From Planctomycetota bacterium (lineage in GTDB: Bacteria > Planctomycetota > B15-G4): 64,000 nt of DNA. Below are positions 42,699 to 64,000 of this stretch, piece after piece. The translations under genes and the position numbers were made by a program. Under the pieces are notes generated by a model, which saw nothing but the letters and a program-made list of their open reading frames with translations, was not told where the DNA came from and searched no databases. The DNA is taken from assembly GCA_029259725.1 (NCBI GenBank), contig JAJDER010000178.1:25557-89556 (forward strand), given 5' to 3'. Position 1 is the stretch's first letter. Every line of letters starts with the position of its first letter.

Positions 42699-42737
42699 AG
42701 CAGCCCGTACGCAAAGTCATCCGCGTCGAGGGCTGCT
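42699..42737. repeat. 39-bp miniature palindrome-ended repeat, apparent internal-deletion copy of the 63862 element
   Basis: agcagccc...gggctgct 8-bp terminal inverted repeats; right end overlaps the TAG stop of the 42736-44382 gene. Confidence 0.7.
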
Positions 42738-44382
42738 AGAACGCCACCAGGCTGGTCTGGATCTTCACCGACAGCTTGAGCTTCGTCGTCGAGATGCCGT
42801 CGAACACCTCGAAGGTGAACGGGTTGCCGCCCAGGCTGTCCACGTGGGGAGCGTCCCAGGTGAAGACCCCGGTGCCCGCGTCGTAGCTGGCGCCCTCGGG
42901 CAAGCCCTTGTTCGGCACGACGAGCGTGACGGTGAGGGCGTCGCCATCCGGGTCCGAGACGAGGATCGGCTGGGTGTAGACGACGCCCTGCAGCCCGGTG
43001 GCCTTGCTGATCTTGCCCACCAGCGGCTTGCTGTTCTTCTCCGGATCGGTGTCCGGTGCCTTGAGCGTGACCTTCTGCTTGGCGACGACACTCTTGGTCT
43101 CGCCGTCGTCCACGTCGACCACGATCGTGTAGACGCCGGCCGGCCCCGCGGCGGGCCAGACGACCGAGCGCGTCTTCTCGTCGTAGGCCGCGCCGGCCGG
43201 GAGCGTCGTCTCGTCGACCGTGTAGATCAGGTTCTCCACCGGCGTGTCGCGATCGACGGCCAGGATCGGAAAGGCGACGTCGTCGCCCACGGTCGACTGG
43301 ATGTTCCACTTGCTCGGCTGCGGACGGGAGTCCTTGACGTTGCTGGTATCGGGGAACTCGGTGCCGATCCCGAGGCGACGCCAGGTCTTCTTCTTCATGT
43401 TGATGACGGGCTGCTCGTCGGTGTTGCGGTACACGCGTCCGTCCATGCGCAGCGTGTAGACGTCACTTCCGGCCGTCTGCAGGTCGCGGTAGTCCTCGCC
43501 CTTCTTGCTCGTCGGCTTGCCCGGGAAGTCGACCAGGACGGTGTCCGGATCGACCGACGAGTGCAGCCGACCGTCGCCGCGGATGGCCCACCAGGTGCCG
43601 TCGTCGGTGAAGCGGATCGAGTTGTAGTACTTGTCCAGACTCTTGTCGCTGTTGTTGGGCAGCGCGACCACGAACGTGCCGGAGGACGGATCGCCGCCGT
43701 CCGCGCCGTCGCCGCCGAGCAGGTCGGGGTCGCCCTTGACCACCGTGCCGTCGCGGCGCAGCGCGTAGATCTCGTTCGTGATCGGGTGCACGGTGAACGA
43801 GAACCAGCGTTGCTTCTTGCCGTCCCCGTCTCCGCCTCCGCTGCTCTCGTTGAAGAAGAACACGGGTTCTTCGTCCAGGCCGCGGAAGAGGCGGCCGTCG
43901 GCACGCAAGGCCCAGATCTCGCCATCACGAATGAGCACGTCGCTGAAGAGCGAGCCGCCGTCCTGGTACTTCACGAGGATCTCGCCGTCCTGGCTCACGC
44001 GACCCTTCTTGCGCACGGCAGCCCAGGAGCCGTTGGCGGCGGCGATCGCGATCCACGGATCCGAGTCGTTCAGCTCCTTGATCTTCTTGCCGTTCTTCGC
44101 GACGCGGCCGTCCCGTCGGATCGTGTAGCGGTCCGGCCCGTCGACGGCGATGTCCCACCAGCTGTTGGGGTCGAACGCGTCCCCGTTCTGGTTCGACCCC
44201 GCGCCCTTCAGCTTGTCGACCTCGAATCCGTTGATCGTGACCACACCCCGTTCGCTCACGGCGTAGATGAACAGCGAAGCCTCCTCTTCCCCGGCGCTGA
44301 CGGACATGCCGAGGCCGAGCAGGAAGGCGAGGACCGACAGCAGGCCGGCCGCGGGGCGGGCCACGGAACGGGACGAGGGCAT
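42736..44382 (-). CDS. Secreted protein with repeated GEIWALRADGR-type motifs and C-terminal Ig-like/putative cadherin-like domains
   Basis: Signal peptide; repeats (YTIRRDGRVAKNG, WALRADGRLFRG, YALRRDGTVVKG, WAIRGDGRLHSS, YTLRMDGRVYRN); DEKTRSVVWPAAGPAGVYTIVVDVDDG and DAGTGVFTWDAP modules. Confidence 0.82.
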   Translation of the reverse strand: MPSSRSVARPAAGLLSVLAFLLGLGMSVSAGEEEASLFIYAVSERGVVTINGFEVDKLKGAGSNQNGDAFDPNSWWDIAVDGPDRYTIRRDGRVAKNGKKIKELNDSDPWIAIAAANGSWAAVRKKGRVSQDGEILVKYQDGGSLFSDVLIRDGEIWALRADGRLFRGLDEEPVFFFNESSGGGDGDGKKQRWFSFTVHPITNEIYALRRDGTVVKGDPDLLGGDGADGGDPSSGTFVVALPNNSDKSLDKYYNSIRFTDDGTWWAIRGDGRLHSSVDPDTVLVDFPGKPTSKKGEDYRDLQTAGSDVYTLRMDGRVYRNTDEQPVINMKKKTWRRLGIGTEFPDTSNVKDSRPQPSKWNIQSTVGDDVAFPILAVDRDTPVENLIYTVDETTLPAGAAYDEKTRSVVWPAAGPAGVYTIVVDVDDGETKSVVAKQKVTLKAPDTDPEKNSKPLVGKISKATGLQGVVYTQPILVSDPDGDALTVTLVVPNKGLPEGASYDAGTGVFTWDAPHVDSLGGNPFTFEVFDGISTTKLKLSVKIQTSLVAF

Positions 44383-62735: not shown

Positions 62736-63863
62736 GTGCCGATGACCACACAGATCTCCCTACGCCGTGCGGTGATGCTCGCGCTGCTCACCGTGGTCGC
62801 CGCGGGGCTGGCCTCGCTGAACGCTTGCCAGGGCCCCTTGCGCGTCGATCCGCTGCGGTACGCCACGCGCGAACCGAGCGTCGATGAACACCTCGCCGTG
62901 GCCCGGGAGTATGCGCCCTGGGTCCTGCATGCCGCCGACGCCGGCCGCGTGCGCGACGACATCCCGGCGGCCTTCGACTTCGACGGCGATCTCGACGGCG
63001 GCAACAACTGGGACAACCTGACGCGCTACGTGATCGAGCCCACGCTGGGCTACTCCGTCGTCGGCACCGAGACGCATTGGTTCCTCACCTATCACCTGTT
63101 CCACCCGCGCGATTGGTCGGACATCGACCTCGGGCTGCACATGACGCACGAGGGCGACGGCGAGAATCTCCAGGTGGTCGTGCGGCGGGAGGACGGACGG
63201 GTCGTGCTGCTCTACACCCAGGCGCACTACGTCGGCGAGGCCTACGTCCGCGAGGGGTTCGAGGCGTCCGCGGCCGAGGTCGAGCCGCGCGGCACGTTGC
63301 GCCTGGTCGACGACGACGGCCACCCCGATCCGGACGGAGCCCACGTGCTGGTCTACGTGCAGTCGGGCGGTCACGGCATCTACGGCGTGCCGGACTCCTG
63401 TGCGGACGTCGTGCTCGATGATGCGGGTGGCGTGCGTTTCGACGGTGCCGGCCTGCTGCTGCGGCCGGCTCGCCCCGACGAGCCGATCGCCGAGCCCGAC
63501 GCGGCCTTCACCCGGATCGATCCCGCCGACGCCTGGCCGTACCGGCTCGAGTCGGTGCCCGCCCAGCTGTGGCCAGGGCTGCGCGACGGATCCCTCATCG
63601 GCGAGGACCGCCTGCTCGATGGCACCGTCCCCTATCGCGACGCGCGACGCAGCCTGGACGTGCCGCGCTACCACGAGGGCGATCGCTTCAGCGGACCCTT
63701 CGGACCCGACCGCGGCATCTCGCCCTTCGCCGTGGACTTCGAGTTCGACGCGCCCCACCTCGGCGCGTTGCTCTTCGACCCGGCGCGTCGCTGGAGCGAG
63801 GCGCTGCTCCTGCCCGAGCCCTGGTCGACAGACTACGTCGTGGACCCGTTCACCGACGCCTAG
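62736..63863 (+). CDS. Putative lipoprotein, weakly Vps62-like
   Basis: Lipobox-like SLNAC; THWFLTYHLFHPRDWSDIDLGLHMTHEGDGENLQVVVRREDGR; VLVYVQSGGHGIYGV. Confidence 0.6.
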   Translation: MPMTTQISLRRAVMLALLTVVAAGLASLNACQGPLRVDPLRYATREPSVDEHLAVAREYAPWVLHAADAGRVRDDIPAAFDFDGDLDGGNNWDNLTRYVIEPTLGYSVVGTETHWFLTYHLFHPRDWSDIDLGLHMTHEGDGENLQVVVRREDGRVVLLYTQAHYVGEAYVREGFEASAAEVEPRGTLRLVDDDGHPDPDGAHVLVYVQSGGHGIYGVPDSCADVVLDDAGGVRFDGAGLLLRPARPDEPIAEPDAAFTRIDPADAWPYRLESVPAQLWPGLRDGSLIGEDRLLDGTVPYRDARRSLDVPRYHEGDRFSGPFGPDRGISPFAVDFEFDAPHLGALLFDPARRWSEALLLPEPWSTDYVVDPFTDA

Positions 63864-64000
63864 CAGCCCGTGCGCGAAGTGCTCTGCAGGCGAGGGCGTC
63901 TCGAGAGCGTCGGATCAAGGCGCAGGACCGGAGGCGAATCCGTGGATTCGTCGAGGATCCTGCAACGCCGAGCCGGCGTTCTCGAGGCGTCCTCGACGCG
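63862..64000. repeat. Long imperfect palindromic (MITE/REP-like) element, truncated by window end
   Basis: Nested arms 63891-63913 with 63973-63995 and cgaatcc 63935-63941 with ggattcg 63944-63950; left end agcagcccgt(g)cgc(g)aagt matches the 42699 copy. Confidence 0.75.

Follow-up and report, generated by a model that had tools for sequence, protein, structure and literature searches.

The repeat that closes the window, i.e., the 64,000-nucleotide stretch of DNA analyzed here, is a MITE: it carries terminal inverted repeats, is flanked by YTAR-type target duplications, occurs in many near-identical copies, and shares its ends with complete insertion sequences of related genomes. The explanation that best accounts for all observations, and that we consider probable, is that this element entered a CTAG holding the upstream gene's stop codon and that a long fold of one of its strands matters for its propagation. 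The common view of MITEs is that of passive leftovers requiring nothing but their ends; in this case, conservation extends to an internal fold and across a phylum, and if our reading is right, these elements depend on a folded strand for their mobility.

Within the window, a plus-strand host ORF of 375 amino acids (62736..63863; from the ORF list, with its frame supported by GC at codon position 3 and 300 open codons) ends in a TAG stop codon at 63861-63863 that lies inside a CTAG at 63860..63863, the left 4-bp target copy as judged from the sequence and the matched YTAR duplications of the family. The repeat starts at 63862, and re-reading confirmed both the sequence and the coordinates (63862-64000, plus strand) given in a preliminary description of this DNA. 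These are the 5' 139 bp of a 162-bp element, the remainder of which is lost past the contig end: the window comprises contig bases 25557-89556, base 64000 is the last one of the contig (89556 of 89556), and the sequence stops there due to the assembly breaking inside the repeat. Contigs C5, C6, C24, C28, and C152 of the same assembly also end inside the repeat. On the plus strand, the left terminal inverted repeat AGCAGCCCGTGCGCGAAGT (63862..63880; delimited from sister copies and ends common to IS1182-like elements, with its partner beyond 64000) is followed by the 5' arm of a middle stem (63891..63916), an apical region (63922..63963), and the 3' arm of the middle stem (63970..63995), which deviates from its partner mostly by G-U differences. 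The apical region shows the strongest conservation within the family and consists of a stem, a 3x2 internal loop with a bulge, and a terminal hairpin, GGCGAATC-CGTG-GATTCGTC (63933..63952), that is near-invariant in 13 aligned copies and common to subfamilies with other terminal repeats. The nested near-complementary arms noticed previously are indeed present: those of 26 nt are 81% complementary and those of 20 nt are 75% complementary, with differences that are mostly G.T on the plus strand.

A full length near 162 bp and the ending of the element had been predicted beforehand, and both are seen in sister copies on other contigs. The full copy at C186:1078-1239 ends exactly as predicted (GATGACTTTGCGTACGGGCTGCT), and the same ending is found in full copies of C191 and C16 and, with small changes, of C139; three of these copies measure 162 bp and the one of C139 measures 161 bp. 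Both MITE ends begin with AGCAGCCCGT, and a transposase ORF cannot fit in 162 bp. With 32 BLAST matches to the repeat in its own genome, many of them at 97-100% identity, and 25 matches to the terminal-repeat pattern compared to 0 for a reversed control pattern, the copy number is far above chance. The stretch at 42699 that had been taken for another copy is related, but it is only a 39-bp internally deleted derivative (42699..42737) that starts with an inverted right end and has a CTAG at its right end. By eye, a downstream minus-strand reading frame seems to take its stop from the CTAG of this fragment (42699-42739). Short versions of ca. 76 bp that have lost the interior and kept both ends were also seen (L341, C53:11312-11387; L343, C163:11566-11641), and several copies in genome G002 (L174, L175, L176, L166, and L169) form directly abutting tandem or inverted pairs, which suggests insertion at the CTAG-like end of a pre-existing copy.

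The search for a RAYT-type or other transposase with matching ends, proposed earlier, led to an IS1182-like enzyme in related genomes. G005 carries an element of ca. 1.48 kb with the same ends as the MITE (CAGCCCGTTGAAGAAGTG / AACAGCCCGTTGAAAAAGTG) and a 453-amino-acid transposase matching PF05598 and, below threshold, PF01609. The best NCBIfam model for the partner transposases is IS1182 (NF033551), with 163.6, 101, and 175.7 bits; these scores are under the curated cut-off of 270, so we call them IS1182-like only. In the B7T1B5 MAG, insertion sequence and MITE share their ends within one genome and abut each other. Relatives of the IS1182-like transposase were found in five of 12 carrier genomes tested and, at E<=1e-8, in none of the own genome, G002, G006, G010, G011, and Pan216; the transposase-negative carriers are mostly incomplete MAGs, while Pan216 is a complete chromosome. 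No autonomous copy was detected in the own, incomplete assembly after checking every terminal-repeat match: C75:77 has an end but a fragment instead of a transposase, an inverted pair on C135 encloses no transposase, and the PF01609 gene of this genome (L286) lacks matching ends. An autonomous partner of the own genome would be expected to carry the ends AGCAGCCCGTGCGC. We infer that an IS1182-like DDE transposase, or a different DDE transposase in other lineages, would cut and insert the MITE in trans. The complete insertion sequences are devoid of the hairpin core, and their transposase thus does not need the core for its own element. Pan216 (G393) additionally encodes several copies of a 404-amino-acid PF01609 transposase without the MITE terminal repeats (L290, L294, L297, L299, and L300).

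Across 126 copies from eight genomes, a YTAR tetramer is present on both sides in 43 cases, and the two are identical in 34 of these 43 compared to 16.7 expected after shuffling. Where the tetramer is non-palindromic (CTAA or TTAG), 11 of 16 cases are direct repeats and a single one is a reverse complement, and these sequences therefore represent duplicated target rather than hairpin. Since YTAR contains TAA or TAG and is duplicated, an insertion into a stop codon leaves this stop intact. The element had been thought to supply the AG of the TAG stop of the upstream gene, but this TAG belongs to the target CTAG that is duplicated at insertion. Such sites are rare in the window (13 CTAG, where base composition predicts 169 and a Markov estimate 51, i.e., a strong depletion), and the MITE would have entered one that happened to contain the upstream gene's stop; the duplicated target would have kept this stop intact. 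Stop codons are not specially targeted in the own genome, contrary to an enrichment that the preliminary description had made a test of its proposal: with genes and stops called by GC at codon position 3, element ends fall on a gene stop in 9 of 25 cases, compared to 8 of 26 for other YTAR sites (p=0.46). Pan216 does show an excess (14 of 44 versus 49 of 481, p=2e-4) that the loss of gene-disrupting insertions could explain. Copies that end on gene stops lie in sense and antisense about equally often (18:24), i.e., without orientation bias. The insertions at stop codons are thus explained simply by a YTAR target that itself contains stop codons.

The fold of the element is conserved far beyond these copies. 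The DNA fold of the repeat in the window has a z-score of -2.9, and the RNA fold of this copy, completed with the C186 ending, reaches -122 kcal/mol for the plus strand versus -87 for the reverse; among the 126 copies, the plus strand folds better than its reverse in 124. Homologues at 70-75% identity occur in the same family and order, and relatives in many Planctomycetota families, down to ca. 68% identity and with other terminal repeats, have kept one long (160-nucleotide) fold. An alignment of 13 copies supports 57 pairs, 34 of them with compensatory changes, and 96.8% of its cells are paired. No shuffle out of 500 attained any of these measures, and versions slid along the alignment reach 36-45%, a control that is flattered by the derivation of the structure from the same sequences, though individually folded copies give the same architecture. 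Columns 74/92 form a conserved G-U pair, and the internal loops contain potential G-A pairs. With a covariance model of this fold, G002 yields at least 121 copies and the complete chromosome of Pan216 yields 116. Of 150 Planctomycetota genomes sampled, at least 19, belonging to many families, give matches, a lower bound given the strict filters. Across its subfamilies, the element has kept one long one-strand fold with conserved internal loops and apical hairpin.

The level at which this fold is selected can be read from one-sided changes at paired positions, which we sorted in five sets of copies into those private to a copy and those shared (total minus private). Shared changes strongly favor G-U over A-C (154:35) compared to private ones (40:42; p=1.4e-7), with a private class that depends on sampling. 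Among G002 singletons, private double changes still favor pairing (11 versus 2) because lineage history is included there. In the five sets, constraint on the fold is thus visible in propagating lineages and not detectably in resident copies, and we infer that the fold matters for propagation rather than for the respective host gene at an insertion site. Selfish and host selection on a bacterial repeat are separated in this way without an experiment. On the Pan216 chromosome, 40 copies have their plus strand running with the replication fork and 76 against it (p=0.001; genes, 111:124), based on one genome with an origin near 0 and a terminus near 3.8 Mb placed coarsely from GC skew. This bias suggests a strand-specific DNA process and may arise either at insertion or through the loss of copies with the better-folding strand on the lagging-strand template. 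The most likely mechanism, which we advance tentatively and with slightly less than even confidence, is that the folded plus strand, as DNA hairpin or cruciform, would be part of the mobilization substrate; we favor it because of the selection on propagation, the replication bias, and the structure-dependent transposition proposed for IS1272 (PMC5678879).

The same hairpin also occurs between unrelated ends. Pan216 harbors a second subfamily of 160 bp in which the same apical hairpin lies between ends GGCTTCGTCTCAAAAGT, and an element of 948 bp on this chromosome with ends matching this subfamily carries PF13340 and PF01609 genes of the IS5 type. A role specific to IS1182 can therefore not be the whole story, since the same fold is found with IS1182-like as well as IS5-like ends. 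It might be that we are looking at a modular mobile hairpin, a conserved single-strand fold that became combined with ends from two or more transposase families and whose formation, as single-stranded DNA or RNA, is required for spread; we give this idea somewhat less than an even chance, and if true, a DDE-type MITE would pass through a structure-dependent step when it moves. A further subfamily in G002 (L377, L383, L394, L405, L407, and L409) combines the same apical hairpin with ends GTGGTGTGATTCAAAAGT.

A serious rival to the folded DNA strand as mobilization substrate is that the fold is selected as RNA, with plus-strand transcripts acting in cis, e.g., tethered to their parent copy or processed by RNase, and thereby aiding the mobilization or tolerance of this copy. 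The strong preference for one strand with G-U kept and A-C avoided would be readily understood in this way, as would the conserved G-U pair and the potential G-A pairs in the internal loops that resemble RNA motifs, and the transcribed MITEs ERIC and BOX have been reported to affect mRNAs (PMC2229807, PMC3049150). However, the balanced sense and antisense orientations at gene stops and the lack of a private G-U preference make a read-through function at resident sites unlikely, and folded single-stranded DNA tolerates G-T as well. Rfam gave no match over the gathering threshold in the window, with a best stray match of E=2.3 in seven loci searched. All in all, we regard a cis-acting RNA as rather unlikely while taking it seriously.

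Alternatively, the fold could have no function and be a by-product of long terminal repeats whose arms template switching or gene conversion keep complementary. Quasi-palindromes are indeed correctable by template switching, but such correction would erase unpaired internal loops and wobble pairs, both of which have been retained between genera and at identities as low as 68%, and it does not predict a preference for G-U over A-C in shared changes only. We thus disfavor this explanation as improbable, though hairpins are general in prokaryotic MITEs (PMC10969869). The preliminary description had left the choice between a non-autonomous MITE, which its terminal repeats, target duplications, copy number, and ends matching complete insertion sequences bear out, and a REP-type element mobilized by a RAYT. 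The palindrome, the strand-specific fold, and the overlap with stop codons would fit the latter as in GTAG REPs (PMC3733652), but the matched 4-bp duplications of the target argue for a DDE transposase, the ends are common to DDE elements, the length is 162 bp instead of 20-40, and Y1_Tnp (PF01797) has 0 matches in three carriers, i.e., the own genome (G000), G002 with its at least 121 copies, and G005. A REP/RAYT identity is refuted in the tested features, barring a RAYT in missing genome parts, and we consider it extremely improbable.

By sequence string or topic, we found no published mention of this element in open papers, which is weak evidence. Among known systems, GTAG REPs and their RAYTs (PMC3733652) are similarly palindromic with ends that often provide a TAG stop, but they differ in size and in their tyrosine transposase, which is absent here, as well as in the target duplications seen here. 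The Chunjie MITE of Geobacter uraniireducens is likewise recently active and intergenic with full and shortened copies, but it measures 178-235 bp, resides in another host, and has no fold conservation described in the review covering it (PMC10969869). ERIC, BOX, RUP, and Correia/NEMIS elements share a size of ca. 100-200 bp, many copies, terminal repeats in one long stem, and a location at gene ends, and the 3' stop codons of genes are often located within BOX elements (PMC3049150). In the limited literature consulted, we found no report for them of phylum-wide compensatory change, selection restricted to propagating lineages, or a common core combined with ends from two families of transposases. 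IS1272, an IS1182-family member for which structure-dependent transposition was proposed, recognizes an inverted-repeat structure and replaces stem-loop targets without leaving a target duplication (PMC5678879). The terminal repeats of our MITE match IS1182-like elements of related genomes, but here YTAR is duplicated, the hairpin is the element itself, and the model match of the partner lies below the curated cut-off. What is new compared to these systems is a long fold that is found phylum-wide and is common to relatives with different terminal repeats.
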